Source of the DNA: a virus
Direction: 5' to 3' (one strand)
DNA length: 34,895 nt
IMG/VR virus record: IMGVR_UViG_3300032323_000719
Coordinates: 1-34,895 of that record
In this document: one piece after another, positions 1,189-21,082 of the stretch
Position numbering within the stretch: position 1 is the first letter of the stretch
How the letters are laid out: the number at the start of each line of letters is the position of its first letter
Position numbers and translations under genes: made by a program
The notes under the pieces: generated by a model
Database searches by the model: none
What the model saw: the letters and a program-made list of their open reading frames with translations, nothing else
Told to the model about the DNA's origin: nothing

Positions 1189-1201
1189 GGTTAAAAAAAA
1201 T

Positions 1202-3004: not shown

Positions 3005-3023
3005 GAATAATTAGGAGCGGTAA

Positions 3024-5135
3024 ATGCCATACATCATAAACAAATCGGACGGAACAGAATTAGTCGTAGTCGACGATGGGAATCTAGATACGACTACCAG
3101 TCTCGGATTACTTGGCAGAAATTACAGTGGGTATGGCGAAGTACAGAATGAGAACTTTGTTTATCTATTAGAAAATTTTTCTAATATAGCTGCACCAGCG
3201 AGACCAATACAAGGACAACTTTGGTTTGATACAACAACTCAGAGATTGAACATATATGATAGATCTACATGGAAAGCAGTAGGAGCCGCTAATGTTCAAG
3301 ATACTCCTCCAACAAACGGCTCTGGGGGTTTTTGGTATAAGTCAACAACTAATCAACTTTTTGTTTTCGCTGGAAACGAATGGCGTCTTGTAGGACCTGA
3401 AGCGGTTGAAAATTTTGGTGACACTAGAATGTCATCAGAACAATTAGCAGATACTGTTGGAACTTTCCATGCTGTTATCAAAGTTTTAGTTAATGATTTT
3501 GTTCTAGGAATTATATCTCCGGATACATTTACAATCAATGCTGAAACTCCTATTCCAGGTTTCGGCGAAGTTGTAGTCGGGTTTAATTTAAATTCATTGA
3601 TAGGATCTTTTAACGGTCCATTAAAGGGTAATGCAGACACTGCCACAGCCTTACAAAACCCAAGAACAATTAACGGAGTGGTGTTCGACGGACAGTCGGA
3701 TATTACTTTAAAATCTGCTACTTCTAATCGATTAATTCGCGGTACCTATTTACTAGGTAACGATTTTGATGGAGCTGTGAGTACATCTTGGTCAGTTGAT
3801 GCAACACCAAATAATACCATTGGAAAAGTTGTGGCTCGAGACGGGTCAGGAAACTTTTCTGCAGGAACAATTACTGCGAATCTTAGAGGAACACTTTTAG
3901 GAAATGTATCAACTACTATAGGACGAAGTGTTTTTAAAATTGTAGAAGCTGAAGAATTTATTGGCGCAAACTTATCTGGAAACGCTGCTTCGGCAACAAG
4001 ATTACAGACAGCTAGACAAATTAACGGAGTTTTGTTTGACGGCACGTCAAATATTACCATACCGACTTCGGCTATCAGTCTAACTGGCCCTAGACTAGCA
4101 CCTAATGTTGTTGAATCTGATTTAACTTCGTTAGGAACATTAGTTTCTCTTAAAGTTTCTAATACGGGAATCACGGTCGGCAATGCAGACGATATGCGAA
4201 TTTCTTCAACATCGGATGGTGGTGTTGAAATAAAAGTTGATAATAGTAAAGGTATAACGTTTGCAGTCAAAGATGTGTCAGTAGGAACTGGTTACGGTGC
4301 TGTGAGATTCGTTGATTCTGCTACGGTATTAGCAGCAGGTGGCGAAGATTTTCCATCAATTATTCCGGTAGGAACAGTTCCTGTTAATCTAGGATCAACA
4401 ACTAGTAGGTTTAATACAATTTATTCAACTAGCATGTCAGCACCTACATTGAATACTGCGGTAATCAATACAACCGATCCGCAGAACGTTGTTACAATGA
4501 CTAGTAATGTTGTAATCGAAGGCAATCTAATTGTCAATGGTGTATCAACTATAATAAATTCTACTCAGACATTTATTGATGATATTTTATTAACTCTTGC
4601 TGCGGGATCTTCTAATCCTGCTGCGGCAAACGGTGCCGGTATATCAATTGACGGTGCTGGCGCACAATTGTTTTACAGTGTCAACGGTGACAAGTGGAAT
4701 ATTAACAAAGATTTAGATGCAGGTGCGTTTACATTTATTGGTACTGCAACATCAGCAAGATACGCTGACTTGGCAGAAAACTATCTTGCAGATACAGAAA
4801 TTGAGCCAGGAACAGTTGTATGTTTTGGCGGCGAAGCAGAAGTTACTATCTGTAATACAGATGGTTGCAGTAAAATAGCAGGAGTTATTTCAACAAACCC
4901 TGCGCACTTAATGAACAGTGATTTACAAGGAAAACATGTTGTACCAGTGGCCCTTCAGGGAAGAGTTTATTGTAAGGTAAGAGGTCCTGTGAAAAAAGGA
5001 GATATGTTAGTTAGTGCCGGTGATGGTTTTGCCAGAGCCGAAAATTCTCCTAAAATCGGATCAGTTATAGGTAAATCCATTGAAAATTTCGATGGAGAAC
5101 ATGGATTAATTGAAGTTGTAGTTGGTAGGGTCTAA
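3024..5135 (+). CDS. Tail fibre / virion structural protein, paralogue 2 with YADLAE C-terminal domain (703 aa)
   Basis: A second member of the three-paralogue family. Residues 1-85 carry the shared N-terminal module (YIINKSDGTELVVVDDG ... GRNYSGYGEVQNENF ... PIQGQLWFD). The central region has short repeats around GNADTATAL and GNAASATRL, each followed by an INGV(V/L)FDG strand, the usual repetitive shaft of marine myovirus fibres. From about residue 574 a C-terminal domain begins with ATSARYADLAENY and continues with PGTVVCFGG, AGVISTNPAHLMN and ALQGRVYCKVRGPVKKGD. The same domain ends paralogue 3. It may be a tip or an intramolecular trimerisation or maturation domain; I cannot tell which. 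An AGGAG ribosome site sits 8 bases before the ATG. Structural role likely; receptor role inferred. Confidence 0.8.
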   Translation: MPYIINKSDGTELVVVDDGNLDTTTSLGLLGRNYSGYGEVQNENFVYLLENFSNIAAPARPIQGQLWFDTTTQRLNIYDRSTWKAVGAANVQDTPPTNGSGGFWYKSTTNQLFVFAGNEWRLVGPEAVENFGDTRMSSEQLADTVGTFHAVIKVLVNDFVLGIISPDTFTINAETPIPGFGEVVVGFNLNSLIGSFNGPLKGNADTATALQNPRTINGVVFDGQSDITLKSATSNRLIRGTYLLGNDFDGAVSTSWSVDATPNNTIGKVVARDGSGNFSAGTITANLRGTLLGNVSTTIGRSVFKIVEAEEFIGANLSGNAASATRLQTARQINGVLFDGTSNITIPTSAISLTGPRLAPNVVESDLTSLGTLVSLKVSNTGITVGNADDMRISSTSDGGVEIKVDNSKGITFAVKDVSVGTGYGAVRFVDSATVLAAGGEDFPSIIPVGTVPVNLGSTTSRFNTIYSTSMSAPTLNTAVINTTDPQNVVTMTSNVVIEGNLIVNGVSTIINSTQTFIDDILLTLAAGSSNPAAANGAGISIDGAGAQLFYSVNGDKWNINKDLDAGAFTFIGTATSARYADLAENYLADTEIEPGTVVCFGGEAEVTICNTDGCSKIAGVISTNPAHLMNSDLQGKHVVPVALQGRVYCKVRGPVKKGDMLVSAGDGFARAENSPKIGSVIGKSIENFDGEHGLIEVVVGRV

Positions 5136-5146
5136 ATTTAGATCCT

Positions 5147-5154
5147 GATAAATA
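5147..5154 (+). promoter_or_regulatory. Possible T4-type late promoter, 7/8 match
   Basis: GATAAATA differs from the T4 late element TATAAATA only at the first base. It lies in a 42-base gap before the gene at 5178. Transcription would start near 5160 and leave a short leader that contains the GGAG ribosome site at 5167-5170. The placement mirrors that of the perfect element at 11755, but the mismatch makes this a weaker call. Confidence 0.4.
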
Positions 5155-5177
5155 GTATGAGATAATGGAGTTACTCG

Positions 5178-6932
5178 ATGCCATATCAAGTAGATAGATT
5201 TAACGGAACCTTTTTAACCTCGGTCGCAGACGGTACTATTGATACCACGACCGATATTCGCTTTGTTGGTAAGAATTATGCGGGATATGGTGAGGTACAG
5301 AATGAAAATTTCTTACATTTACTAGAAAATTTCGCTAATACTACACAGCCACCAAAAGTAATTACAGGGCAAATTTGGTACGATAGCGGTGAAAAACGCT
5401 TAAAATTTTACGACGGAGCTAAATTTAGAATAGCTAGCGGTGCTGAAGCATCAGCTACTGCTCCTGCTGGACTTACAACAGGTGATTTTTGGTGGGACAC
5501 TACTGCTAATCAGCTATACACATGGTCCGGTTCTGACTTTATATTAGTTGGCCCAGAAGCAAGTCCCGATCTTGGGGCTTCCGGTGTTATTCCGCAGATT
5601 GTTAAAGATGTATCTGGAACTAATCATTCGATATTAAAGTTCCAGTCAGGTGGCGACACACTAGTCATTTTAAGTAAAGATGAATTTACATTAAACAGTA
5701 CACTGAATCCTATTGCAGGATTTACTTTAATTAAGAAGGGTTATAATTTAATTAACTCTGGAAGTACTGGTGTAACTAGTTCCGATCATTTTTATTGGGG
5801 TACAGCATCTAACTCTGTTAAGCTCGGCGGATTCATAGCTGACGATTTCGTTAGAAAAGGCTCAATTTTATTCGATCAACGAGTAGACTTTAACGATCCA
5901 GGATTTAGATTAGGTGATCAAAAGGACTTATCAGTTAAAGTTGAAAACGGTGATCAGGTAGTTTTCGAAACTGACAACGGTGGCGGTTCTTTTAATTTTA
6001 GAATAAAATCTTCCCCAACTGTAACACAAACTCCTCTAGTAATAGCTCCTAATGGGCTTTTACCTGGAACTAATAATCTTTATTCTATTGGCGGCGCAGG
6101 CAATGTTTGGTTATCAGTTAGTGCTACAACATTTATTGGTAATTTAACAGGCGATGTAACTGGAAATACTTTTGGATTACATAAAGGGAATATAGTTGCT
6201 AACGATGATTCAACGATCTTCAATGCCAACACAAAAATTATAACAGCGGACTTCCAAGGAACATTAACGGGTAACGTTATCGGTGATGTTACAGGAACTT
6301 CAACTAACACACTGACATTAAATGGATTGACTGGTAACGTTTCTTCAACAGGTTCAACAGTTGCTATTAGAGATTCGTCTGGTCGATTGTTTGCCACTGC
6401 ATTCAAAGGCAACAGTGATACTACTGATAGACTAAGAATTGATAATACAGCAGTCGATACAGGCACAGGATATTTCAGTGCTAAAACAACAGCAGCAGGA
6501 AACACTATAGCAGCGAGAGATTCTGCTGGTAATTTATTTGCTGTTCTATTCGACGGAACAGCAACAGCAGCAAGATATGCCGACCTTGCAGAAAAGTATC
6601 TTCCAGACACTGATTACGAAACAGGCACAGTGGTAATGATCGGAGGAGAAAAAGAAATAACAGCCTGCACCTGGGGCAAACGAGCCATTGGTGTAGTTAG
6701 TGCAAATCCTGCTTTCATGATGAACAAAGATCTAGAAGGCGGAATTTACGTAGCGTTAAAAGGGCGTGTTCCAGTCAAGGTAATTGGTCGTGTTAAAAAA
6801 GGAGATGATTTAATCGCAGCCGACAATGGCTGTGCAATGATCGCAGTTCCTCATTCTAGCGGCGTTTTTGCAGTTGCTTTGGAGAGTAACGATGACGAAG
6901 GCGTAAAAATTATTGAAGCATTGGTAATATAA
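5178..6932 (+). CDS. Tail fibre / virion structural protein, paralogue 3 with YADLAE C-terminal domain (584 aa)
   Basis: The third member of the family. Residues 1-85 repeat the N-terminal module (VDRFNGTFLTSVADG ... GKNYAGYGEVQNENF ... VITGQIWYD). The middle has the turn-like repeats GNLTGDVTGN and GNVIGDVTGT, typical of fibre shafts. The C-terminal 125 residues start at ATAARYADLAEKY and run through GTVVMIGGEKEIT, GVVSANPAFMMN and ALKGRVPVKVIGRVKKGDD, matching paralogue 2. The start is chosen by GGAG at 5167-5170, 7 bases before the ATG. A near-perfect late promoter element lies just upstream, so this gene may be transcribed separately from the two before it. Virion role likely by family resemblance; host-range role is inference. 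Confidence 0.8.
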   Translation: MPYQVDRFNGTFLTSVADGTIDTTTDIRFVGKNYAGYGEVQNENFLHLLENFANTTQPPKVITGQIWYDSGEKRLKFYDGAKFRIASGAEASATAPAGLTTGDFWWDTTANQLYTWSGSDFILVGPEASPDLGASGVIPQIVKDVSGTNHSILKFQSGGDTLVILSKDEFTLNSTLNPIAGFTLIKKGYNLINSGSTGVTSSDHFYWGTASNSVKLGGFIADDFVRKGSILFDQRVDFNDPGFRLGDQKDLSVKVENGDQVVFETDNGGGSFNFRIKSSPTVTQTPLVIAPNGLLPGTNNLYSIGGAGNVWLSVSATTFIGNLTGDVTGNTFGLHKGNIVANDDSTIFNANTKIITADFQGTLTGNVIGDVTGTSTNTLTLNGLTGNVSSTGSTVAIRDSSGRLFATAFKGNSDTTDRLRIDNTAVDTGTGYFSAKTTAAGNTIAARDSAGNLFAVLFDGTATAARYADLAEKYLPDTDYETGTVVMIGGEKEITACTWGKRAIGVVSANPAFMMNKDLEGGIYVALKGRVPVKVIGRVKKGDDLIAADNGCAMIAVPHSSGVFAVALESNDDEGVKIIEALVI

Positions 6933-6940
6933 GGATAGAT

Positions 6941-9900
6941 ATGACTTCAGGATCGTTTATTACTGCGATTGGTTATAATACTATTCGTAGCAAAATTGCA
7001 GAATTAATGGGAGTGGGTTCCGGATCAAAGGGTTACGGCCAAACAATCATTAGCCAGGTAGTAGCACCTGGTTCTATTATAACAAAATCTCAATGGGATG
7101 ATTTAAGATTTGATTTATTAAATCTTAGAATACACCAAACCGGAGTAGTACCTGTTGTACCCGAAGTTAATAGAGCAGATCCTGTAGTTTTCGGTACAAG
7201 CCAACCAGCAGTTCAATATAATCAAATAGCCGACCAAGCGGTACTAGATAGATTTTTATTAGGTCCAGGTCAATTTGTTGTACAAAATATCTCCAACTTA
7301 AATTATACAAATTTATGGTATAACACTCTTTCCACGATAGTTACAGTTACTTTTGGATCTCCGGATCAAGCGAGATTCTTTTTTAATTCGGGTGGAAAGA
7401 TAAGATTAACTAGCTCTCGTTCTGGAGGAACTGTTTCTTCTCAGAATCGTGCCTGGACAGGATTATTGAGTTCAGTTGGCGCAAGAGATTTTGGTGCTAT
7501 CGGTAATACTGTAAATTTTTACAATTTAACAGGTGACTTTCAAACAGTTTTCAGTAGCAGGTCAGGTGGCATTTATTATAGTTCTGTTTACAGAAACAAC
7601 GAATATAGAATTGAAGCCAGATGTGACACTACAACGAATACAGGCGGCACAGCGAGAACTGTTCAATTTAGAATTTCTTATATTGATCTTCAACCAAATA
7701 CATTTAATAGATTTACCGACGGTACACTAAATCTTACAGTTGACGAAATTAGAGCACAAGGAACATTGGTTCCTGAGGGATCTGGAACATTTTCTATAGT
7801 AAGACCCGCAGTAACAACTATTCCAATTTCGGAATCAGGAGCGCCAATAGTTCCTCCTGGATCGTTATACATTCCTTTTGTTCCTGCGATTACAAACATT
7901 CCACCAACTCGCCCGACAGAAATAGAATCTGCGATAACATTATCATCGTACGATGTATTTACGGCTTCAGGAACACAAGATTATACCACACCTGGAAATT
8001 ATGAATTTACAGTACCTCCTGGAGTTTCGACATTAAATGTTGAACTCGCTGGTGGAGGCGGAGCTGGTGGATTTTCTGTAAGAGGCGATCCTCAACTAGG
8101 TGGTGGTGGCGGTGGATCGGGTGGATATTTGCAAAGATCTATTTCAGTATTCCCAGGACAAAAATTACAAGTCAGAGTTGGTCGTGCAGGACAAGCTAAC
8201 ACTAACAGAGTTTCTTTGAATAGAAATGGTACTATGTCATATATTGCTGAAGGTTTTTCAAATCTAACAGCTTCATATGCGACAGCATATCCAGAAGTTA
8301 CTTGGCCATCTTGGTCTAGTTTCATGAAATCCTATGCAGTATGGCCTACAGGAGCAGTGACTTCAGCACCATCGGAAGGTGATAGAGAAATATGGTACTA
8401 TGAAGTTCATATTCCGTCGACTGGTTCTTACACTTTTACTGCCGCAGCTGATAATTCGTTGAATGCATTATGGCTAGATGACGAACTGATTATACAAAAT
8501 TTTAATTCATTCTCAACAACTACCACAGCTACTAGAACTTTAACAGCAGGTTTATACACCGTTGTGGTAGTAGGTGTAAATGCCGCAGGCTCTAGTGGAA
8601 ATCCTGCAGGTGTTGCGGCAACTATCACTTCGGGAAGCAGATTAATATGGAGTACTAGGTATGGTAGAAAAGCAACCTTAACTGGTGTGTACTCCGCAGG
8701 CGGTGGTATTCAGGGTGAAGATGCTACGCAATCATTGTTGGGTAAAGGCGGATTGCCAGGATTACCTGGTGGCCAAGCTGGTGCAAACGGAACCTTAACT
8801 GACAATCCTAATGCATCAAGAGGCGGTATTGGCGGAACAACTCCGGTTGGCACAGGCGGTCTTGGCGGATCTGGCATCGCAGGCAGCAATGGTCAGGGTT
8901 TTGGCGCAGGCGGTGGCGGCGGCGGTATTACACAGGTTGACAATACGATTACTGATCCCGGTAATCCCGGCGGAAATGGATCTTCTGGTAAAATTTCTTT
9001 ATCGTGGGGTACAACTTTCAGAGGTATAGCGAATATTGGATTTAGTTGGTCTGGCGGTGGTGACACTGACGGTACTCTAAAATCAGCATTATGGACACTA
9101 ACACCGATATCAGGCTTCCTTGGCGGTCCGTTTAGCGGAGAGCAAATAATTTCTGGAACCCCAGTTGCTGGTCTATCTCTTGCTGGACAGACAATTACAT
9201 ATACACTTGGTCAAGGCGGTGCCGGTGGATCGGGTGCATCTAACGGTAACAACGGTACAAATACAACAGTTACTTTCCAAGGAGTTACATTAACAGCTTT
9301 TGGTGGTACTGGGGGTAGATATAATTCTACTCAAAACGCTAACGGCGGCAGCTTTAGTGGCGGAGATAGTGGTGTTGTTGGTGGTGTTGGTGGCGGCATG
9401 ACAGGTGATGACGGCGGAGGTGGCGGTGGTGCTATCGGCGGCGTTGGAGCACCTTATACAGGTTCGTCAAATAGAGGACAGAATGGTGCCCAGAGTGCAG
9501 ACTATCTTGGGTTACAGGCAGCGGTCGTTGCTTCTAACTTTACATGGGTTGGCGCTGGTGCCGGCGCAGATGACGGTGCAACACCTAGAAATGCCAAGAA
9601 CGGCGGAACAGCATTAGGTTTTGGTAGCGGAGGTGGCGGTGCAGGTTGGTACGGAGGTAATGGCGGTACTGGTCTATATGGTGGTGGCGGTGGCGGAGCC
9701 TCCGGTTATTCTGCTGTACAAACTGGTGGACGTGGTGGCCAAGGTGCTGTTGTTTGCCAATTTGTTGGCGGAACAACTCAATATATTGTATTAACTAGCG
9801 GCACAGCATTTACTGTTCCTACAGGAACCACAGCAGTAAGAATTTGGGCTGTTGGTGCAGGCGGTGGTGGCGCAGGTTCACCTTCACAGGACGGAACATC

Positions 9901-10771
9901 CGGCGGCGGTGGTGGTGCAGGTGGTATATCGTTTAGAACCTGGACAGGCACCGGATATACAGGAAGTGCAAACGTAGAGGTTTCTTCAGCCACTCCAGGA
10001 ACACAAATATCATACAGAGTTGATGTTAGATATAAAGATAACTTAGACGCAATATCTGCGGTAAGATCTAGAACCTTTACTCAGCAAGTGCCAGGTAGTC
10101 AATCGATATCTGTTGGTAGAATATACACAACTCCTGAAACAATATATTGGGGAGAAACTCCAAGAATCTTCGTTGAGTTAACTAGACCTTCAGCGGCAGC
10201 AGTCCCGGTTGAAATTAGATATGTATACTCGGGCGCGATCGCAGCAGCCATTGGTCAAACCGGAATAGTGAACACCTTTAACATAAATGTTCCTGCTGGT
10301 CAAACAATAGCATCAGTTTTAGGAACTGTTTATCAGAATAATTTACCAGCTGGTGGCTTAATAGGAACTGCGTTTATTAATAATATTCCGCAGTCAAATA
10401 ATAATCTATCTTTCTTAACCTATGCAGGCCAGGGAAGAAATATTACAGTATCTTCAGTTACTGGAGTTCCGCAGCAAGTTTATTGGGGTCAAACTCCTTC
10501 ACTGAGAGTGAATTTAAATACTCCATCATTAACACCTGTGGTCGTTGAACTGAGATTTGACTGGACTGGTGATATAACTAACATATATGGTACTGACAGT
10601 AACACTACATTATCAGTGACCATTCCAGCTAATCAGAGTTTTGGAACAGTAGCATTGCCGATTTATCTCACTGGATATCCGTCGGGAGCTATAGTTGGTG
10701 CTGCATACATAAACGGTGTTGCTCAAACTGCTGAAATCGAATTCTTAAGATATATGGGCCGAGCGCCATAA
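6941..10771 (+). CDS. Large glycine-rich adhesin-like tail protein with PA14-like segment (1276 aa)
   Basis: This is a modular, probably receptor-binding virion protein. Residues 1-310 are paralogous to the entire next gene: compare YNTIRSKIAELMG, SQWDDLRFDLLNL, ARFFFNSGGKIR and EYRIEARCD. From about 365 a Gly-rich domain starts (GGGGAGGFSVRGD ... VFPGQKLQVRVGRAGQ). About 483-565 resembles a PA14-type beta domain (WYYEVHIPSTGSYTFT ... ALWLDDELI). Residues about 590-1010 are again extremely Gly-rich, with runs of GGG and GAGG like the polyglycine lattice of gp38-type phage adhesins. The C terminus has two related repeats of about 110 residues. There is no signal peptide or membrane segment. 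An AAGGA ribosome site lies 5 bases before the ATG. The adhesin role is inferred from composition and position. Confidence 0.75.
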   Translation: MTSGSFITAIGYNTIRSKIAELMGVGSGSKGYGQTIISQVVAPGSIITKSQWDDLRFDLLNLRIHQTGVVPVVPEVNRADPVVFGTSQPAVQYNQIADQAVLDRFLLGPGQFVVQNISNLNYTNLWYNTLSTIVTVTFGSPDQARFFFNSGGKIRLTSSRSGGTVSSQNRAWTGLLSSVGARDFGAIGNTVNFYNLTGDFQTVFSSRSGGIYYSSVYRNNEYRIEARCDTTTNTGGTARTVQFRISYIDLQPNTFNRFTDGTLNLTVDEIRAQGTLVPEGSGTFSIVRPAVTTIPISESGAPIVPPGSLYIPFVPAITNIPPTRPTEIESAITLSSYDVFTASGTQDYTTPGNYEFTVPPGVSTLNVELAGGGGAGGFSVRGDPQLGGGGGGSGGYLQRSISVFPGQKLQVRVGRAGQANTNRVSLNRNGTMSYIAEGFSNLTASYATAYPEVTWPSWSSFMKSYAVWPTGAVTSAPSEGDREIWYYEVHIPSTGSYTFTAAADNSLNALWLDDELIIQNFNSFSTTTTATRTLTAGLYTVVVVGVNAAGSSGNPAGVAATITSGSRLIWSTRYGRKATLTGVYSAGGGIQGEDATQSLLGKGGLPGLPGGQAGANGTLTDNPNASRGGIGGTTPVGTGGLGGSGIAGSNGQGFGAGGGGGGITQVDNTITDPGNPGGNGSSGKISLSWGTTFRGIANIGFSWSGGGDTDGTLKSALWTLTPISGFLGGPFSGEQIISGTPVAGLSLAGQTITYTLGQGGAGGSGASNGNNGTNTTVTFQGVTLTAFGGTGGRYNSTQNANGGSFSGGDSGVVGGVGGGMTGDDGGGGGGAIGGVGAPYTGSSNRGQNGAQSADYLGLQAAVVASNFTWVGAGAGADDGATPRNAKNGGTALGFGSGGGGAGWYGGNGGTGLYGGGGGGASGYSAVQTGGRGGQGAVVCQFVGGTTQYIVLTSGTAFTVPTGTTAVRIWAVGAGGGGAGSPSQDGTSGGGGGAGGISFRTWTGTGYTGSANVEVSSATPGTQISYRVDVRYKDNLDAISAVRSRTFTQQVPGSQSISVGRIYTTPETIYWGETPRIFVELTRPSAAAVPVEIRYVYSGAIAAAIGQTGIVNTFNINVPAGQTIASVLGTVYQNNLPAGGLIGTAFINNIPQSNNNLSFLTYAGQGRNITVSSVTGVPQQVYWGQTPSLRVNLNTPSLTPVVVELRFDWTGDITNIYGTDSNTTLSVTIPANQSFGTVALPIYLTGYPSGAIVGAAYINGVAQTAEIEFLRYMGRAP
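10103..10768 (+). repeat. Two tandem C-terminal domains of about 110 residues in the glycine-rich adhesin
   Basis: Copy 1 (10103-10441) and copy 2 (10442-10768) share the order YWGETPRIFVELTRPS / YWGQTPSLRVNLNTPS, then VEIRYVYSGAI / VELRFDWTGDI, then NVPAGQTIASV / TIPANQSFGTV, then LPAGGLIGTAFIN / YPSGAIVGAAYIN, ending LSFLTYAG / IEFLRYMG. The copies are clearly homologous but diverged, so this is an old domain duplication. The strand-rich pattern suggests an immunoglobulin-like fold. Confidence 0.8.
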
Positions 10772-10800
10772 GTACTGTAGCAGATTTAAAAAGATAAAAA

Positions 10801-11730
10801 ATGGCGATACCAGTAACTAATGCTGTAGTTCGAATAGCAGACTATAATGATTTAAGAACCCAGGTAGCTAATATTTTAGGTACTGGTGCAGGCACGTCTG
10901 GTTACGGACAGATTATGAGATCCATCCAAATTCCTGCCGGAAGATTAGTATCTGTTCAAGATTGGGAAAACTTAAAATTTGATATTTTAAGCATACTTCT
11001 GCATCAAGATGGTGTAACTCCTAATTTAATCAGTCTTCAGGAAGGTAGAGTGATTAGTGCTGCTTCTACAGAAGTTCCAACAGTGTATACCAATGCAGCA
11101 GCAAATATCGGAACCAATAAATTTAATATTGCCAACGGACAGTTCGTTACAGAAACTAGAGGTTCAATTTCTAGAACGTGGGATTCAACAACTTCTCCAA
11201 CAACTTGGCGTGTTAGTTGTACTGCAACAGTAACAGTGACTTTTGCATCAACAGATGCAGCAAGATATTTTTTCAATGCAGGCGGCAAAATTAGATTTTC
11301 CAGTGAAAGATCCGGCGGAGTTTCTACATCACAGAATACTTCTTGGACTAGCCTATTAAACACTGTAGGCACACAGTCCTTTGGTTCAACTGCACCCGCG
11401 GTAAATTTTTATACTTTAACTAACACAGATCAATTCTGGTATACTGCTTCAGCAAGCTCTCCTTATTCTACCAATAGATTCCGTTTAGCTGCTCGTTGTG
11501 ATATTACCAATAACGTTAACGGTGGAGCAAGGATACTAACTTTTACTGCAACTTGGGAAGATAGATATAATGATCCAGGCCCACCGCAGCCGGGCGATGC
11601 AGTTGACGGAAAATTAGAATTGTTTGTTAGCCAAATTAGGCCAAGCGGTGTTCTATACCCAGATTTAATTCCGTCTAGCTTCTTTATAGACTCTCCTTTA
11701 TACACCCTAGGCCAGATAACCGGTTCATAA
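10801..11730 (+). CDS. Short paralogue of the adhesin N-terminal region, virion structural protein (309 aa)
   Basis: This 309-residue protein aligns along nearly its whole length with residues 1-310 of the 1276-residue protein before it: YNDLRTQVANILGTG against YNTIRSKIAELMG, QDWENLKFDILSILLHQDG against SQWDDLRFDLLNLRIHQTG, then ARYFFNAGGKIRFSSERSGG, FRLAARCDITNN and the DGKLELFVSQIR strand. It lacks the Gly-rich region, the PA14-like segment and the C-terminal repeats. It may be a free form of the attachment domain, a cap, or the remnant of an adhesin whose tip was lost or moved. No strong ribosome site precedes the ATG (only AAGATAAAAA), which hints at weak or coupled expression. The homology is directly visible; the role is inferred. 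Confidence 0.75.
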   Translation: MAIPVTNAVVRIADYNDLRTQVANILGTGAGTSGYGQIMRSIQIPAGRLVSVQDWENLKFDILSILLHQDGVTPNLISLQEGRVISAASTEVPTVYTNAAANIGTNKFNIANGQFVTETRGSISRTWDSTTSPTTWRVSCTATVTVTFASTDAARYFFNAGGKIRFSSERSGGVSTSQNTSWTSLLNTVGTQSFGSTAPAVNFYTLTNTDQFWYTASASSPYSTNRFRLAARCDITNNVNGGARILTFTATWEDRYNDPGPPQPGDAVDGKLELFVSQIRPSGVLYPDLIPSSFFIDSPLYTLGQITGS

Positions 11731-11749
11731 ATTTTTCTCCACAAGCGAT

Positions 11750-11767
11750 CAGTTTATAAATAAACTG
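11750..11767. repeat. Perfect 8-base inverted repeat around the late promoter
   Basis: CAGTTTAT, two bases AA, then ATAAACTG form an exact inverted repeat that encloses the TATAAATA late element at 11755-11762. It lies in the 59-base gap between the last tail gene and the glycosyltransferase block. It is too AT-rich and too short in loop to look like a usual terminator. Confidence 0.7.
11755..11762 (+). promoter_or_regulatory. T4-type late promoter TATAAATA (perfect)
   Basis: This is an exact copy of the T4 late promoter element, which is read by host RNA polymerase carrying the phage late sigma factor gp55 together with the sliding clamp. Transcription should begin near 11768, leaving about 22 bases of leader with a GGAGAG ribosome site at 11778-11783 before the TTG start at 11790. 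It heads the eight-gene overlapping chain up to 18924. Confidence 0.85.
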
Positions 11768-11789
11768 CGTATATAATGGAGAGATTAAA

Positions 11790-12140
11790 TTGGACGAAAA
11801 ACTCAAATCCGCCCTGGCATTTTCAAACTACCGACAAACCCTAGCTACACAGAGACGTCTTCTAAAAGAAAAATTAGAAGCTCGCTTAACCTACGGATTC
11901 AACGGCGGCATTTTTAAAATAGATCAGAATCTATTAACATTTGTAGATTTTTTTATTAAAAACGGTCGAACAGAATCTATTCCCTTAATTGATACTAACG
12001 GAAATCCTATTATGATCCACGACCTTGAAAAATTCAAGGACGAGATCTTTGACAGATACTTTTCAGCTACTAACGAGTATATTGATTCGTTTGAAAAATT
12101 AAAAAAATCAAGAACCATTGAAAAGTTATTAGATCTATGA
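11790..12140 (+). CDS. Conserved phage protein of unknown function heading the glycan block (116 aa)
   Basis: I do not recognise a named family. The protein begins at TTG (MDEKLKSALAFSNYRQTL), chosen because GGAGAG sits 6 bases upstream; there is no in-frame ATG nearby. It is mostly helical and charged, with a basic N-terminal helix (QRRLLKEKLEARL) and a C-terminal helix rich in Lys, Glu and Phe. There is no membrane segment or signal peptide. It is the first gene after the late promoter, and its stop overlaps the next start as ATGA, so translation is probably coupled to the first glycosyltransferase-like gene. It could be a small structural or assembly protein that happens to share the transcript. 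Confidence 0.7.
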   Translation: MDEKLKSALAFSNYRQTLATQRRLLKEKLEARLTYGFNGGIFKIDQNLLTFVDFFIKNGRTESIPLIDTNGNPIMIHDLEKFKDEIFDRYFSATNEYIDSFEKLKKSRTIEKLLDL

Positions 12141-12997
12141 AAAAAGGCGTTCTAATATTTGCTCATAACAGCAGAGAAGTAGATTATTCGGTATTGGCTT
12201 TAATATCGGGAAGTCTTGCAAAAAAACATCTCAAAGTTCCTGTGTCAGTAGTAACAGATCAGTCAACTATGTCATGGATTAAAGAATCCGGTAATGAAGA
12301 AAAATTCAAAGATGTTTTTGAAAATATTATTTTAGTTGAAAGACCAGACACTGCTAACGTTCGTAGACTTAACGATGGTGGCGAATCTAAAATGGTTCCC
12401 TTTATTAATTCCAGTCGAACTGTGGCCTATGATGTTTCTCCTTATGATCGAACATTGCTGATCGACAGCGATTTTTTAATCTTTTCCGATCAACTTTCAA
12501 ATTATTGGGATCTCGATTACGATGTAATGATATCGAAATCTATAGATGACATACAAGGAGATAGGATAGGCCATTTAGATATTTCAGTATCAGAAACAGG
12601 AACACATCTATATTGGGCTACATGTGTTATGTTTTCAAAATCCGATTACGCAAAAACGTTTTTCGATCTAACAAGTCACATCCAAGAAAATTATAGACAC
12701 TACGGAGAAATTTTTAAATTCTCCACAGAACAGTATAGAAATGATATCTCTTTCAGCGTTGCCAAACACATTATGGATGGATTTGAAACAGACACATCGT
12801 CAGCATTACCGCCCTTATTAACTACTATAGATAGAGATGTGCTAATAGATGTTAAGGATAATAAATTAGTATTCCTTATTCACAAACAGCAAGAATGGAA
12901 TGCTTTTTATCCAGCAGTGATTGATGGAAGGGATGTTCATATAATGAACAAACAAAGTATAGTTAGAAATAAAGATCTACTGTTGGAGTTAGTATGA
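12137..12997 (+). CDS. GT-A-like glycosyltransferase (DSD motif, 286 aa)
   Basis: Probable nucleotide-sugar glycosyltransferase of GT-A type. The N terminus (KKGVLIFAHNSREVDY) is a beta strand and loop typical of the nucleotide-binding half. A second strand and turn (VPVSVVTDQSTM) follows near 34-45. RTLLIDSDFLIF near 104-115 carries the DxD metal and sugar-nucleotide motif. Downstream are the aromatic-rich acceptor-side elements (HLYWATCVMFSKSD). The closest match in style is the GT8-like group. Its start overlaps the previous stop (ATGA) and its own stop overlaps the next start (ATGA). Acceptor unknown; given the neighbours it could act on a phage-made glycan, a virion protein or host surface sugar. 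Confidence 0.65.
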   Translation: MKKGVLIFAHNSREVDYSVLALISGSLAKKHLKVPVSVVTDQSTMSWIKESGNEEKFKDVFENIILVERPDTANVRRLNDGGESKMVPFINSSRTVAYDVSPYDRTLLIDSDFLIFSDQLSNYWDLDYDVMISKSIDDIQGDRIGHLDISVSETGTHLYWATCVMFSKSDYAKTFFDLTSHIQENYRHYGEIFKFSTEQYRNDISFSVAKHIMDGFETDTSSALPPLLTTIDRDVLIDVKDNKLVFLIHKQQEWNAFYPAVIDGRDVHIMNKQSIVRNKDLLLELV

Positions 12998-13833
12998 CTT
13001 TTGGTTATCTATTGATTATTTCAGAACATGCATCTAGAGACTATCTTAAGATGGCCTATGCTCTAGCACTGAGTATAAAAAACACACAAAAGGAAGGATT
13101 TGATAAGGTAGCACTAGTTACTGACAATGTCGATCGTGTAAAAAAATTAAAAAGTCCTTGGGTGTTTGACGAAGTAATACATTGGGATAAAGAAACATAT
13201 TGGGATGGAAGATCTTGGATGGACAAATTAAGTCCTTGGGATCACACAATTTGTTTAGATGTAGACATGCTATTTCTAAGAGATTGCAGTCACTGGGCTG
13301 AGTACTTTATTAAGAACAGCGAAGTGTATGTGGCAAACAAATCCTATACAATCAGCGACAAAGTAGTAACCAAAGATTTTTATAGACAGACATTTACTAA
13401 AAATCAATTACCTAATTTGTATTCTTTTTATACCTATTTCAAGAAAGACAGTGAATTAGCAGATGAATTTTTTACACTTGGTCGTTATGTTATAAAAAAT
13501 AATTTAGAATTTAAGAATACGTTTTTATCTGAATTCATTCCTAATGAAGTAGGAACAGATGAAGCGTTTGCGCTCAGTGCTAAAATTTTAGATATACAAG
13601 ATCAGATTGCATATCCTTTAGACTTTCCTAAAGTAGTTCATATGAAACCAATGGTACAGGACTGGCCCTGGCCTGCAAATAAAGTAACAGATCATGCAGG
13701 ATTTTATCTAAACAATAAAGGGCAATTAAAAATAGGAAATCAGCAACAGTACAGTATTATTCATTATGTAGAAAAAGATATAATGACAGATGAATTAATT
13801 TCAACTCTAGAGAAAATAGCATGGAAGAAATAA
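12994..13833 (+). CDS. GT-A-like glycosyltransferase (DVD motif, 279 aa)
   Basis: A second GT-A-like protein, similar in plan to the preceding one. It has an N-terminal strand (FGYLLIISEHASRDYLKMA), a VALVTDNVDRVKKL segment, and HTICLDVDMLFLRD near residues 85-98 with a DxD motif. It then has an acceptor-side region with EVGTDEAFALSAKI, where the conserved DE pair after GT is typical of retaining GT-A enzymes. A late FPKVVHMKPMVQDWPW segment with a His followed by Lys resembles the C-terminal metal ligand region of GT8. GGAG lies 7 bases before the start. It overlaps the next gene by 13 bases. Catalytic class is reasonably supported; donor and acceptor are unknown. Confidence 0.65.
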   Translation: MTFGYLLIISEHASRDYLKMAYALALSIKNTQKEGFDKVALVTDNVDRVKKLKSPWVFDEVIHWDKETYWDGRSWMDKLSPWDHTICLDVDMLFLRDCSHWAEYFIKNSEVYVANKSYTISDKVVTKDFYRQTFTKNQLPNLYSFYTYFKKDSELADEFFTLGRYVIKNNLEFKNTFLSEFIPNEVGTDEAFALSAKILDIQDQIAYPLDFPKVVHMKPMVQDWPWPANKVTDHAGFYLNNKGQLKIGNQQQYSIIHYVEKDIMTDELISTLEKIAWKK

Positions 13834-14414
13834 CTTACGACTTCTCTGATTTTGCAGACAAGTTTGATTTAAAGAAAATTGAATATTATGCCCTATATGA
13901 TTCTAATACATTAACAGTTAAAGGCATATATCCGTCACATGCGTTGGAAGATAGAACAGATGCTATCGCGATTGATCACGAATTAGCCGACAGGATTAAC
14001 AGCGGACATACCAATATGTCCAAATGTAAAGTTAATCTATATAATAGAACCATAGAAGTAATTGAAGACAATTCAGAAATTTCTATCGACACTGTATTAC
14101 ACAGAATCATAGAGAAAAAATGGAACACTAAAAAAACCAAAAACGATATCTTGATTATCTATGACTCTAAAACAAAGATTTTGAAATTTAAAATACATCA
14201 AAAATATTTTAGTGATGTTACCTGGCCTAAAAATCTAGAATTAAAATTTATAATCACAGGATACAACGACCCGCATATCCTATACAAAACTATTTCTTTT
14301 ACGTTAGGTGCTATATTAGAAAAAAAGACCATAGAGGCCAAAGTAGACATTGATGGGGAATTTAGTATTTTTTCAAAACGAGTTTTCCCAAATTATCAGT
14401 TGGAGATATTATGA
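13821..14414 (+). CDS. Unknown protein in glycan block (197 aa)
   Basis: No family recognised. The protein starts MEEITYDFSDFADKFDL and is a soluble mix of helices and strands, rich in Lys, Ile and Asp, with no cysteine cluster, DxD or membrane segment. It has three strand-like segments of similar build: YALYDSNTLTVKGIYP, KVNLYNRTIEVIEDN and LIIYDSKTKILKFKI, which may be internal repeats of a small beta unit. It is embedded between two glycosyltransferase-like genes, overlaps the first by 13 bases and the next by ATGA, so it should be co-produced with them. A carbohydrate-binding or scaffold role is only a guess. Confidence 0.65.
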   Translation: MEEITYDFSDFADKFDLKKIEYYALYDSNTLTVKGIYPSHALEDRTDAIAIDHELADRINSGHTNMSKCKVNLYNRTIEVIEDNSEISIDTVLHRIIEKKWNTKKTKNDILIIYDSKTKILKFKIHQKYFSDVTWPKNLELKFIITGYNDPHILYKTISFTLGAILEKKTIEAKVDIDGEFSIFSKRVFPNYQLEIL

Positions 14415-15322
14415 GAGTAATTGAATTTGACATTATTTTTCTTAGCTATGACGAACCGAATGCAGATTTGCATTATGCAGATTTATGTAACAAGGTGCCT
14501 TGGGCCAAACGTGTTCACGGAGTGAAAGGCAGTGATGCAGCACATAAAGCTGCTGCCGAAGCATCTGAAACAGAATGGTTCATTACTGTGGATGCTGATA
14601 ATATTGTCGATCCTGAATTCTTCAATTTTAATCTCGATATGTCTGATCCAAAGATTCGTGTATACGGCTGGTGTGGTCGTAACGTGATCAATGGACTGCG
14701 TTATGGTAATGGTGGTTTAAAGATCTGGAATAAAGAGTTTGTATTAAACATGAAAACTCACGAAGCATCAGAAAGCGACCGAGCACAGGTAGATTTTTGT
14801 TGGGAAGATGGTTATAGAAATTTTCCCATGAGTTTTAGCGACAGTGTTATTACGGGATCCCCGTTCCAAGCATGGCGAGCAGGATTCCGTGAAGGTGTTA
14901 AAATGACCTTGCTCGACGGAATCAAAGTTCCTGCACAGGAAATACAAAAAAGAATATGGTGGCACAATCTACATAGATTAAAAATGTGGGCCACAGTGGG
15001 AAGTCATGAAGATAACGGACTTTATGCTATCTACGGTGCAAGACTAGGAACATGGATGACTAACTGCACAGACTGGAATTACATTGAAGTTAGAGATTTT
15101 GAAATACTAAGAGGCATATGGAATCAATACGGCAAACCCTATGAAGAAGCAAATGGAGAAGGGTTGGTAGAAGAAATCGAGTCGTTGGGTGAAAAAATCA
15201 AATTGAATCTAGGATTCAATTGGCCCTACCTAGATCCAAATAAGAGCAAATATACATTAGACTTATACAATGAAACAATAGAATTGTGTAAAACTTATTT
15301 TAGAATGCCAGAACATGTATGA
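14411..15322 (+). CDS. Glycosyltransferase-like protein (DAD motif, 303 aa)
   Basis: GT-A-like protein with a distinctive N terminus (FDIIFLSYDEPNAD), followed by AKRVHGVKGSDAAHKAAAEA and WFITVDADNIVDPEFF near 57-72. The DAD acts as the DxD metal site. Further on come RVYGWCGRNVINGLRYGNGG and SPFQAWRAGFREGVKM. All these landmarks recur in the C-terminal third of the next gene, so the two are paralogues. GGAG lies 7 bases before the ATG, and the start overlaps the previous stop by ATGA. The next gene overlaps the end by 8 bases. This subfamily appears in marine myoviruses from what I recall; the sugar and acceptor are unknown. Confidence 0.7.
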   Translation: MRVIEFDIIFLSYDEPNADLHYADLCNKVPWAKRVHGVKGSDAAHKAAAEASETEWFITVDADNIVDPEFFNFNLDMSDPKIRVYGWCGRNVINGLRYGNGGLKIWNKEFVLNMKTHEASESDRAQVDFCWEDGYRNFPMSFSDSVITGSPFQAWRAGFREGVKMTLLDGIKVPAQEIQKRIWWHNLHRLKMWATVGSHEDNGLYAIYGARLGTWMTNCTDWNYIEVRDFEILRGIWNQYGKPYEEANGEGLVEEIESLGEKIKLNLGFNWPYLDPNKSKYTLDLYNETIELCKTYFRMPEHV

Positions 15323-16310
15323 TATTCTTTATGCCAGTCGAGATAAAATCTTAGAACAAGACTGGATCAATTTTAAATCAAGATTTCCTCGAGCTATACG
15401 TTGTGATAACGTAGAAACTTTCGACGATCTAAAATCTAAAAGTTTTACAAAGTTTTTCTGGATTGTTTGGGACGACTTAGAAATCGTAGATGATTTTAAA
15501 TTTGATTATACTATTCCTGAATGGGATAGAATGTACACACATCTTTTCTTAAACGGAGATGAGTACAATGGCGTTGTACTAATTTCTAAAGACATTGAAG
15601 TTAGTAAAAAAGAAATTGAATTTAGATTTTTTATGAATTTTAAATCGATAGAAACTCTTGCTAGTCGATTTAAAAAATATGATATCATTGGTATAGGTAA
15701 TATCGATGAAAATCTGAAGAATAAATTTCCTCATACAAAGATGTTGCCAGTAACCGCAACATTAGAAGAAATCAAAAATGCATCTTCCACTAGAATGTTT
15801 TGGATTGTATGGTACGATGTTATTATCGATAAGAATTTTGATTTCTCTTATAGAGCAGCTACATACGCTGACACTAAACAAATACATGCCTTTAAGAACG
15901 GAAACTATTATGACGGGATATGTTTGTTTCCAAAAGATGTAGAAATGTCTCAACGTGAATTTGCTTATAAATTCTTTGCTAATAAAAAAGAAACAGGAAT
16001 ACAAGCATCTTTACCAAAGCCCTACGATATTGTATTCATTAGTTATAATGAACCAAATGCTGACGAAAATTACAAATTGCTCTGTGAAAAATTTCCTAGA
16101 GCTAAAAGAGTTGATAAAGTTAAGGGCATACATCAAGCACACATTGAGGCAGCAAAACTATCAACTACGGATGTGTTTTGGGTAGTTGACGCCGATGCTA
16201 TCGTTGTTGATGGATTTAATTTTGATCACATAGTTTCTACTTACGATAAAGAAACCGTTCATGTGTGGAGAAGCCGAAATCCTATTAATGATCTAGAGTA
16301 CGGTTATGGC
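15315..16310 (+). repeat. Tandem triplication of a glycosyltransferase N-terminal half-domain
   Basis: Three protein-level repeats within one gene, each running from an MYDI/KYDI/PYDI strand through FPRA(I/K)R or FPHTKM, an FW(I/V)V strand carrying the DxD position, and a GGV/NGVVLISKD/DGICLFPKDVE segment. Copy boundaries are near 15315, 15675 and 16020. DNA-level identity is low, so this is an old duplication, not a recent slippage. Confidence 0.7.
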
Positions 16311-16706
16311 GGTGTTAAGCTATTACCTAAAAAACTCACATTGAATATGGATATAACTAAACCAGATATGACTACTAGTATTTCTAAACAGTTCAATGCT
16401 GTTTCGATAGTGTCAAATATTACTGCATTTAATACTGATCCTTTTTCTACATGGAAGTCTGCCTTTCGAGAGTGTGTAAAATTAGCCAGCGGTATTATAG
16501 TTAGAAATAAAGAAAAAGAAACTTTAGAAAGATTAGAGACGTGGTGTACTGTAGGCAATGATAGAGAGTTTGGAATATACGCCATTGCAGGTGCTAATGC
16601 TGGTAAATTGTACGGAGAGTCTAATAAGGATAATCCTACAATGTTAAATAATATCAATGATTTCGATTGGTTAAAACAAGAATTTGAAAAGGAATTCCCA
16701 CAGTGA
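15315..16706 (+). CDS. Three-repeat glycosyltransferase-like protein with only one intact DxD (463 aa)
   Basis: The protein is built from three copies of the same N-terminal half-domain seen in the preceding gene. Copy 1 (about 1-118) has FWIVWDDLEI at 48-57. Copy 2 (about 121-230) has FWIVWYDVII at 162-171. Copy 3 (about 236-463) has FISYNEPNAD and FWVVDADAIV at 288-297, followed by the rest of a full-length domain (WRSRNPINDLEYGYGG, FSTWKSAFRECVKL). Only copy 3 keeps the DxD; copies 1 and 2 have Trp at the first Asp. I infer one catalytic domain plus two non-catalytic, perhaps sugar-binding or scaffolding, copies. It overlaps the previous gene by 8 bases and meets the radical SAM gene at TGATG. 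Confidence 0.72.
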   Translation: MYDILYASRDKILEQDWINFKSRFPRAIRCDNVETFDDLKSKSFTKFFWIVWDDLEIVDDFKFDYTIPEWDRMYTHLFLNGDEYNGVVLISKDIEVSKKEIEFRFFMNFKSIETLASRFKKYDIIGIGNIDENLKNKFPHTKMLPVTATLEEIKNASSTRMFWIVWYDVIIDKNFDFSYRAATYADTKQIHAFKNGNYYDGICLFPKDVEMSQREFAYKFFANKKETGIQASLPKPYDIVFISYNEPNADENYKLLCEKFPRAKRVDKVKGIHQAHIEAAKLSTTDVFWVVDADAIVVDGFNFDHIVSTYDKETVHVWRSRNPINDLEYGYGGVKLLPKKLTLNMDITKPDMTTSISKQFNAVSIVSNITAFNTDPFSTWKSAFRECVKLASGIIVRNKEKETLERLETWCTVGNDREFGIYAIAGANAGKLYGESNKDNPTMLNNINDFDWLKQEFEKEFPQ

Positions 16707-18112
16707 TGGAACAACACAGAGTAGTACTATATAAGAAAGTCAAAGAAGAATTGGATCAACACGGTCCGGGAATGTGCCTAGCTAAATGGAGTCAGACAAC
16801 TATACATTTGGGAACAGGTCATACACATAGCTGCCATCATCCCGGGACTCATAAAATTCCTGTAGAAGAAATTCTTATAGATGCAAGTGCATTACATAAT
16901 ACCAGTTATAAAAAAGAAAAGCGTAAAGAGATGATGAGCGGCTTTAGGCCGTCAGAATGTCAATATTGCTGGAATGTTGAAGATAATGCTGATCGCGGAA
17001 ACAATGAATTTTACAGCGACAGGGTTTATAAAAGTGCCGAGTCTTGGTCGCGAGTTCTTAAGAATAAAATTGAAGAACAAGGTTGGGGGAAAAATATTAA
17101 TCCCAGCTATTTAGAAATTAGTTTCAATACAACTTGTAATTTTAAGTGTAGCTATTGTAGTCCTGATGTTAGTTCCAAGTGGATGGAGGAGATTGTCGCA
17201 TCTGGTCCTTATCCTACATCTACCTACTATAATAATATCGAAGGAGTTAAGGCCTTTGATAAAATGCCTATACCTGAGCGTGAAGATAATCCGTATGTGG
17301 ATGCTTTCTGGCGTTGGTGGCCAGATCTTTACCCAGAACTGCACACTTTTAGAATCACAGGCGGGGAACCGTTATTAACTAAACATACTTTTAGAGTTCT
17401 TGATTATATTATCGAAAATCCTAATCCTAAGTTAGAATTAGCGATCAATTCAAATTTGGTTATTCCTAATTCTTTATTTCAAGAATTTATTCAAAAAATT
17501 AAAATAATTCTTAGTAAAAGATCGGTAAAAGGTGTTTCTCTGTTTACCAGTTGTGAAGCCTATGGTTCTCAAGCTGAGTATATTAGATATGGCATGGATT
17601 ATAAAAAATGGATCGATAACTTGTATGAATTTACTAGAGAATGTCCTGATGCACTGATAGGTCTCATGTGTACCTATAATGCTCTTTCGGTAACAACATT
17701 TGAAAAATTCTTAGAAGATATGCTAGAGCTTAAAAAATTTAGAAGAGAGCTAGGTATTCCTCATTATAAATTTATAATAGATATTCCGTATCTTAGAAAT
17801 CCTGCACATCAGAATATTAAAATTTTAACTCCTGAATTTTTACCCTATATCGACTCCCAGATAAAATTTATGGAAAATAATCTTATTGATTATTCATCGA
17901 GAGAGTTATTAGGATTTGAGCAGGCAGAATATGAAAAAATGAAAAGAATACATTCATTGTTTAAATATTATATGGAAAATCCAGAAGATGTTACTAGGGA
18001 TCGAAAAGATTTTGTTGTCTTTGTTAATGAACACGATAAAAGAAGAGACACTAATTTTTTAAAAACTTTTCCAGAATTTAAGGATTTTTACGATTTCTGT
18101 TCTATGCTATGA
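16706..18112 (+). CDS. Radical SAM protein with N-terminal cysteine-rich (twitch-like) region (468 aa)
   Basis: Numbering here counts from a GTG three bases upstream of the chosen ATG. Radical SAM enzyme: CNFKCSYCS carries the CX3CX2C cluster motif (Cys 145, 149, 152), and FRITGGEPLL at 217-226 is the SAM-contacting GGE motif. Before the core, a region with Cys 25, Cys 44 (THSCHHPGTHKIP), Cys 86 and Cys 89 (SECQYCW) looks like an auxiliary Fe-S or twitch domain placed N-terminally. That layout is known for a radical SAM group found in marine phages and bacteria. The substrate is not known. Its place between glycosyltransferase-like genes and an SGNH hydrolase suggests modification of a sugar or a virion protein. 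ATG at 16706 (TGATG overlap) was preferred over the GTG at 16703. Confidence 0.82.
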   Translation: MEQHRVVLYKKVKEELDQHGPGMCLAKWSQTTIHLGTGHTHSCHHPGTHKIPVEEILIDASALHNTSYKKEKRKEMMSGFRPSECQYCWNVEDNADRGNNEFYSDRVYKSAESWSRVLKNKIEEQGWGKNINPSYLEISFNTTCNFKCSYCSPDVSSKWMEEIVASGPYPTSTYYNNIEGVKAFDKMPIPEREDNPYVDAFWRWWPDLYPELHTFRITGGEPLLTKHTFRVLDYIIENPNPKLELAINSNLVIPNSLFQEFIQKIKIILSKRSVKGVSLFTSCEAYGSQAEYIRYGMDYKKWIDNLYEFTRECPDALIGLMCTYNALSVTTFEKFLEDMLELKKFRRELGIPHYKFIIDIPYLRNPAHQNIKILTPEFLPYIDSQIKFMENNLIDYSSRELLGFEQAEYEKMKRIHSLFKYYMENPEDVTRDRKDFVVFVNEHDKRRDTNFLKTFPEFKDFYDFCSML

Positions 18113-18924
18113 AAGTTGAAAATATTGATCAAATATATGCGCCTAACATAGGCCTTGAAAATTTAGGAAGACTGAACCAATTTGTTCACGGCGAGTTGCT
18201 CAATAATAACAGTGTTGGTAAACCTTTTGAAATTATAGAATTTCCATACTTAAAGGAACCGGGGGCAATAAAAGATTCGTGGTCTTATAAAATTAACTCT
18301 CACGGTTTTAGAGGAAAGGAATGGAAATTTAAAAAAGGATTTATACCTTTTTTTGGCTGTAGTTATACCTTTGGAATAGGCGTTGAAAAAAACATAACTA
18401 CCTTGTTTGAAGAGAAGACAGGAAGAAAATGTATCAATCTCGGAATTCCCGGATCGTCATTGCCTTTCGTTTTAAAATCATTTCATATATTCAATACTAT
18501 ACAACCTAGTAGATGTGCTGTAATCACATTACCGGCTTTAGACAGGATGGTAAATCCTAAAAGAAGTAAACACGGAGAATGGGAATACTATAATATTCTT
18601 CCCAACATGGCAAATACAAGATCGGACTATGAAAAGATATATCGAGTATTAGGTTCGGACTATTTTGTTTCAGCAGCATTAGATTACATAGCTTGGGCTA
18701 AAACAACTGCAAAACTAACCAACACTATATTATATTGGTCTTCGTGGCATGACAGTACTATGTCTTTGATTAATTCATGTATAAATCGAGAGAATATTTT
18801 TTACTACGATTATAATAATAATCAAATAGATTTAGGAAGGGACAACGGACACTGGGGTCCGAAGAGCACAGAACGCTGGGCTGATAATTTAATTAAATTT
18901 TTGGAAGAAAGAAACGAATTATAG
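18109..18924 (+). CDS. SGNH/GDSL-like hydrolase or acyltransferase (271 aa)
   Basis: Residues 81-90 FFGCSYTFGI match block I of SGNH enzymes, with Ser85 as the likely nucleophile (GCS in place of GDS, a common variant). NLGIPGSS at 110-117 fits block II with the oxyanion Gly. RDNGHWGPKS at 244-253 supplies the Asp245-x-x-His248 pair of block V. An upstream NSHGFRGKEW motif at 63-72 is often seen just before the catalytic domain in phage and cell-surface SGNH proteins. Family members add or remove O-acyl groups on polysaccharides. It ends the late glycan block, overlapping the radical SAM gene by ATGA and converging on the minus-strand arm with a 6-base overlap. Enzyme class is well supported; substrate is inferred. 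Confidence 0.78.
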   Translation: MKVENIDQIYAPNIGLENLGRLNQFVHGELLNNNSVGKPFEIIEFPYLKEPGAIKDSWSYKINSHGFRGKEWKFKKGFIPFFGCSYTFGIGVEKNITTLFEEKTGRKCINLGIPGSSLPFVLKSFHIFNTIQPSRCAVITLPALDRMVNPKRSKHGEWEYYNILPNMANTRSDYEKIYRVLGSDYFVSAALDYIAWAKTTAKLTNTILYWSSWHDSTMSLINSCINRENIFYYDYNNNQIDLGRDNGHWGPKSTERWADNLIKFLEERNEL

Positions 18925-21074: not shown

Positions 21075-21082
21075 TATTTATA
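21075..21082 (-). promoter_or_regulatory. T4-type late promoter TATAAATA on minus strand (perfect)
   Basis: Plus-strand TATTTATA reads TATAAATA on the minus strand. It lies in a 42-base gap, 31 bases before the start at 21044, leaving a short leader. It is flanked by GTATA and TATAC (21070-21083), a small inverted repeat. It should drive the genes from 21044 down to 18919 late in infection. Confidence 0.8.

Follow-up and report, generated by a model that had tools for sequence, protein, structure and literature searches.

The 34,895-base IMG/VR virus record IMGVR_UViG_3300032323_000719, analysed here complete as one stretch (the window), contains on its + strand a cassette of eight genes (11790-18924), named u1, gtA, gtB, u2, gtC, gtD, rSAM and SGNH. 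Judged from gene content and motifs, this cassette is a conserved glycan-type unit of uncultured T4-like phages, often jumbo, and the predicted folding of its leader indicates that it is probably locked to late expression. We give about even chances to the view that it serves late-expressed glycan decoration of the virions and is tied to the tail-fibre module. A sequence-only reading had described an overlapping chain of eight genes behind a late promoter and directly after tail-fibre genes. All eight open reading frames were found as placed, with overlaps of 1-13 bases.

Conservation of the cassette among uncultured phages

Scanning IMG/VR with gtC gave at least 593 relatives, of which the best 80 were kept; these share 79-95% identity with gtC of the window. 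The radical-SAM protein, used as query, gave 55 loci. The order that recurs among the relatives is fibre genes, a gap of about 59 bases, u1, gtA, gtB, u2 and gtC. Non-redundant gtC loci with sufficient DNA upstream number 54; u1, gtA and gtB are all present in 51 of them and stand in this order ahead of gtC in 50. Because the order recurs so regularly, the genes are not scattered singly among related genomes, which the sequence-only reading had named as the finding that would speak against it. Its proposal that the eight genes form one set holds insofar as they travel together, but only the first five are constant and the 3' part is variable. On the 3' side of gtC lie gtD, radical-SAM genes numbering one to five or more, and genes for various SGNH-motif proteins. 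A radical-SAM gene is present in 56 of 57 of these 3' parts (tails), and SGNH proteins, by strict motif, in 19 of the 57; SGNH motifs are found in 16 of 109 otherwise unassigned tail reading frames versus 20 of 495 other reading frames. The most conserved cassette protein is gtC.

The T4 major capsid protein gp23 is encoded on six of eight tested relative contigs. One of them, a 219-kb contig, was compared further; the isolates nearest to it by gp23 belong to the jumbo T4-like phages, among them Sinorhizobium phage Phosso and Pseudomonas phage PA5oct. DNA and protein searches of 50,697 phage records with the proteins of the window and of a marine clade gave no cassette member, with zero matches for u1, gtB, gtC, gtD and rSAM of the window and for gtA and gtC of the marine clade, and no cultured phage in this collection was found to have the cassette. 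For the marine-clade rSAM the sole matches were radical-SAM proteins of Vibrio phages, about 22% identical, and these were not counted as cassette members.

Related radical-SAM genes are also located in other conserved phage clusters that have no u1-gtC genes (L083-L091, L120, L122-L126 and L133), for example behind reading frames of about 243, 285, 80, 471 and 477 amino acids. The N_Twi_rSAM model has 21 matches on contig G006 (328 kb, that of locus L101) and 18 on G002 (282 kb, that of L038). Many of these, not all, are above the cut-off, and most lie outside the cassette, which amounts to an expansion of the family on these contigs.

Glycosyltransferase-like proteins

Four GT-A-like proteins had been proposed, and the DxD pair is near-invariant in all four families. 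Searches of Pfam and NCBIfam gave no family for gtA, gtB, u1 or u2. The gtB profile matches glycogenin-2 (E 3e-4) over profile positions 8-109, around the DxD, and gtB is assigned to GT8 (glycogenin-like) by this sequence similarity; the similarity of the gtA profile to glycogenin is very weak. For gtC the sequence signal is almost nil (Pfam GT2, E 0.06). Its predicted structure (pLDDT 90.5) has a GT-A Rossmann-like nucleotide-binding fold in residues 1-150, and the top Foldseek matches of the model are to the N-terminal domain (domain 1) of PBCV-1 A64R (E 4e-6). A64R is known from experiment as a rhamnosyltransferase that builds capsid glycan (PMC9614988). The glycosyltransferase domain of gtD is gtC-like (z 52 in a shuffle test), and gtD is assigned the GT-A fold through this homology. 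Two degenerate module copies precede that domain, with z 28 between the copies and 14-16 to the glycosyltransferase domain, and gtD relatives differ in the number of copies.

In bacterial genomes, a scan with gtC gave 54 loci. Many of them are contigs in metagenome bins that look phage-like and keep the gene order of the cassette. The relatives on chromosomes, in Rhodobacterales and Photorhabdus, adjoin other glycosyltransferases, and such neighbourhoods support a glycosyltransferase role for gtC without naming its acceptor. One Photorhabdus cluster (L186, 10001-10702 and neighbours) combines a gtC-like gene with GT4, GT2, a nucleotidyltransferase, an ABC transporter and an HlyD protein; from its gene content, the product looks exported and glycosylated.

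Radical-SAM, SGNH, u1 and u2 proteins

The radical-SAM assignment is confirmed, as rSAM is a clear N_Twi_rSAM protein (NF033640) with 322 bits against a curated cut-off of 170, covering positions 3-398 of the 398-position model. It contains CxxxCxxC plus four further conserved cysteines. No described function was found for N_Twi_rSAM, and a PDB match of rSAM to a PPR protein was taken as chance. The SGNH protein, likewise as proposed, belongs to DUF6473 (40.5 bits against the Pfam gathering score of 27), and its catalytic motifs GCSxT and D..H are kept, with S85, D245 and H248 conserved among the five sequences compared.

A PDB match of u1 to MutL (E 0.03) was also taken as chance, and u1 has no conserved Cys/Ser/Thr-rich tracts. 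A Foldseek search with u2 gave no match below 0.001; the Ig-like match of its C-terminal part reaches a Z of only 6 and is no evidence of function. Hydrophobic segments typical of membrane proteins are absent from all eight cassette proteins.

Late promoter and leader hairpin

The late promoter that had been claimed corresponds to an exact TATAAATA located 28 bases 5' of the u1 start. A single octamer of this kind is not rare in the AT-rich window, where two exact copies are observed against 3.85 expected by chance, so that the promoter call needed comparative support. It is credible as a promoter because its place is fixed among relatives: of 35 non-redundant leaders from the freshwater clade, 33 have NTAAATA 25-42 bases before the u1 start, and 21 have exact TATAAATA.

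In most relatives the 60-70 bases ahead of u1 are predicted to form a hairpin, and in nearly all freshwater relatives the promoter lies within it and the 3' arm would mask the u1 ribosome-binding site. In the window, the outer stem pairs 11734-11741 with 11777-11784, including the Shine-Dalgarno TGGAG (11777-11781), and the inner stem pairs 11750-11756 with 11761-11767. The computed hairpin has -16.5 kcal/mol (z -2.6). A transcript begun at the late promoter, expected from T4 practice to start at about 11769, would be without the 5' arm, and its computed fold is essentially open. The two features of a T4-type late lock, a late promoter motif in the stretch encoding the hairpin and a ribosome-binding site in the 3' arm, are thus both present by prediction.

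Leaders were assessed by single-sequence folding and accessibility; a MAFFT alignment was set aside for covariation because the stems slip in it and two of its rows were out of register. Over 33 loci, the mean computed probability that the Shine-Dalgarno is unpaired is 0.13 in read-through RNA versus 0.63 in promoter RNA, and 0.38 when the 5' part is shuffled. The shift has the expected direction in 32 of the 33 loci (Wilcoxon p about 8e-7 for either comparison, the related sequences being not fully independent). Masked leaders make up 94% for u1; the two fibre genes ahead of it reach 8% and 0%, other unassigned genes 10%, and gtB, which overlaps gtA, 25%. In part of the marine clade the promoter is sigma70-like (TTGAnn-N16-18-TAnnnT) with the same geometry (six of six testable leaders, 0.04 versus 0.66), and the remaining marine leaders have neither a clear promoter nor a clear hairpin. 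The late timing proposed earlier is, as a prediction of strictly late synthesis, well supported by the conserved promoter and the masking leader. Marine-clade hairpins before u1 (L113, L134, L135, L101) end in a U-run just ahead of the start codon, and such a hairpin may be an additional terminator of the fibre transcript.

Gene layout

The overlaps between successive cassette genes (Table 1) are, in order, 4, 4, 13, 4, 8, 1-4 and 4 bases. The u1 start is TTG in the window and ATG at the equivalent place in relatives, and ATG 16706, the start given earlier for rSAM, is an alternative to 16703. The position after tail-fibre genes is borne out by PHROGs, in which the upstream genes match tail-collar, tail-fibre or other virion proteins, except for the last one (10801-11730), which has no PHROG match and whose N-terminus resembles the preceding fibre genes. 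Opposite-strand genes follow the cassette.

Table 1. Cassette genes, leader elements and 5' neighbours in the window
Feature	Position	Strand	Description
Six tail-collar/tail-fibre/virion genes	67..11730	+	Directly 5' of cassette; N-terminal domain common to several
Leader hairpin	11734..11784	+	Predicted; masks u1 ribosome-binding site in read-through RNA
T4-type late promoter TATAAATA	11755..11762	+	Within hairpin; expected start past 5' arm
u1	11790..12140	+	116-amino-acid protein, no function assigned; opens conserved core
gtA	12137..12997	+	GT-A-like; DxD D110/D112 conserved
gtB	12994..13833	+	Glycogenin/GT8-like; DxD D89/D91 and H216-x-K218 conserved
u2	13821..14414	+	Fast-evolving, two-part; C-terminal part predicted Ig-like beta-sandwich, weak match
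gtC	14411..15322	+	GT-A glycosyltransferase-like; helical C-terminal part; DxD D61/D63
gtD	15315..16706	+	Glycosyltransferase domain at about residues 237-463, gtC homologue; DxD D292/D294
rSAM	16703..18112	+	Twitch-type radical SAM; CxxxCxxC 145/149/152, GGE 220-222, extra cysteines 25, 44, 86, 89
SGNH/GDSL-type hydrolase or acyltransferase	18109..18924	+	DUF6473; GCSxT 83-87, D245/H248

Possible function of the cassette

The gene set, its conservation, the motifs, the GT-A fold of gtC and the hairpin/promoter switch are supported by computation, and the substrates, acceptor and purpose given below are inferred. In RNA reading through from the tail-fibre genes, the hairpin would hide the u1 ribosome-binding site; when the phage late promoter within the hairpin fires, the RNA would begin past the 5' arm and the cassette could be translated. 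With host nucleotide sugars as donors, the soluble gtA, gtB, gtC and gtD would next assemble a short oligosaccharide in the cytoplasm. Its acceptor would be a virion protein of the phage, most probably a fibre or another protein of the surface, and tailoring of the glycan by the SGNH and radical-SAM enzymes may follow, through redox chemistry, rearrangement or exchange of acyl groups. The constant part of the glycan would come from the five-gene core, and its outer part would be diversified by the variable genes at the 3' end. Virion decoration fits best because the glycosyltransferases are predicted to be late-only, soluble, linked to fibres and accompanied by tailoring enzymes.

Several points weigh against this reading. 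The glycan, the activities and the acceptor are all predicted ones. The TM-scores of gtC against A64R are low, at 0.25-0.42, and VIA Z values of 9-11 are reached by many unrelated enzymes of the GT-A fold, so that the A64R match, the fold being generic, indicates a GT-A fold and not a substrate. Beyond the core, gtD, u2, u1 and gtA show positive partial correlations in divergence with the adjacent fibre gene, and the fibre gene one further upstream has no such partial correlation with cassette divergence; this co-divergence is confounded by adjacency and shared descent. Bacterial gtC relatives stand beside glycosyltransferases and, in places, exporters, which suits envelope glycans equally. 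Similar clusters in pelagimyophages were interpreted by their authors as modifying the O-chain (PMC7029224).

The main rival is a late change of the host envelope (lipopolysaccharide core, O-chain or capsule), by which progeny would be spared re-adsorption to debris and infected neighbours, or rivals would be excluded; we consider it unlikely, though the best placed of the alternatives. The GT8 and radical-SAM genes of the pelagimyophage host recognition cluster have been read in this way (PMC7029224). The GT8/glycogenin-like character of gtB and the company of bacterial gtC relatives, including the Photorhabdus transporter and HlyD genes, are consistent with it. It is opposed by the lack of membrane-like segments in the eight proteins, and a GtrA-type flippase (PF04138) was found in none of six relative contigs, which may be incomplete. 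With neither this flippase nor membrane proteins found, the cassette does not appear to be of the GtrABC serotype-conversion type. Superinfection exclusion is normally an early function, which the predicted late lock suits poorly, and virion modification is preferred over it because of the late-only expression.

Some twitch/SPASM radical-SAM enzymes modify peptides. The radical-SAM enzymes of the cassette might likewise act on peptides, and the cassette would then yield fibre proteins both glycosylated and radical-modified, or else a small modified peptide for which u1 or u2 serves as carrier or substrate. The small size of u1 and u2, their place in the core without a recognised enzyme motif, and the peptide S-glycosyltransferases SunS and ThuS among the structural matches of gtC would agree with this; yet no function was found for N_Twi_rSAM, u1 is without the residue tracts mentioned above, and in the cassette no gene for a leader peptide, a protease or export could be recognised. 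We regard the idea as quite improbable.

Phages also encode DNA glycosyltransferases. Modification of phage DNA bases as in T4, for which such enzymes (cited also in PMC12619734) offer a precedent, is very improbable here, because a thymidylate-synthase-fold gene (PF00303, a match that does not separate hydroxymethylase from thymidylate synthase) was found in only one of six relative contigs, possibly incomplete, and the window has separate DNA-modification candidates; late-locked expression, moreover, is not replication timing.

Comparison with known systems

The pelagimyophage host recognition cluster (PMC7029224) likewise belongs to T4-like aquatic phages and combines fibre genes with GT8-type glycosyltransferases and radical-SAM cassettes. 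By its description it is non-syntenic, hypervariable and located between VrlC and gp14, whereas the present cassette has a fixed-order five-gene core, its own late promoter, a leader masking the ribosome-binding site, and then opposite-strand genes. The gp14 model gave no match in six contigs, nor in controls. The capsid glycosylation set of chloroviruses, with PBCV-1 A064R (PMC9614988), is also virus-encoded with mostly soluble glycosyltransferases, and the fold of gtC is nearest A64R domain 1, at about 16% identity and a low TM-score. It differs in belonging to a eukaryotic virus, in early expression, and in having methyltransferases in place of radical-SAM and SGNH enzymes. Mycobacteriophage virion glycosylation, as cited in PMC12619734, places phage glycans on capsid and tail tube; these are different phages.

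T4 genes e and I-TevI use masking of the ribosome-binding site together with a late promoter, and masked sites are also listed for soc and 49 (PMC3014915). As here, the site is sequestered in an RNA helix, and in gene e the late promoter lies within the sequence encoding the 5' strand (PMC3014915). Unlike the T4 switch, the present leader would govern a glycan-type cassette of several genes, and in part of the marine clade the geometry is kept with a sigma70-like promoter. As a clear member of N_Twi_rSAM, rSAM is here clustered with GT-A enzymes, often in several copies.

Other features of the window

The opposite-strand region contains a GTP cyclohydrolase I gene (27843-28682, -) and a QueE-like radical-SAM gene (23206-24057, -), which by sequence suggest a 7-deazaguanine DNA-modification pathway; no QueC or QueD partner turned up in the genes scanned. 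A second exact TATAAATA (21075-21082, -), the last of the two in the window, lies 31 bases before the opposite-strand gene 20760-21044 and is a possible second late promoter.

Implications

Each component has precedents, since glycosyltransferases next to phage fibres, radical-SAM genes in phages and glycosylated virions are all known singly; the fixed core, the combination of genes and the leader switch make this cassette a new variation on them. We tentatively propose, at somewhat less than even confidence, that a late-locked pathway of virion glycosylation is common to hundreds of uncultured T4-like phages, among them many jumbo ones. In this pathway radical-SAM and SGNH enzymes would remodel the glycan (or fibre peptides), with a constant core and a diversifying outer part, a logic like that of chlorovirus capsid glycosylation. 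To our knowledge, no radical enzyme has been described in virion glycosylation. Whatever the glycan, the leader would represent a T4-style translational lock conserved across very different sequences, and it predicts that the cassette is not made early. If virions are decorated, widespread uncultured aquatic phages would own a glycan pathway, which bears on host recognition and phage ecology.

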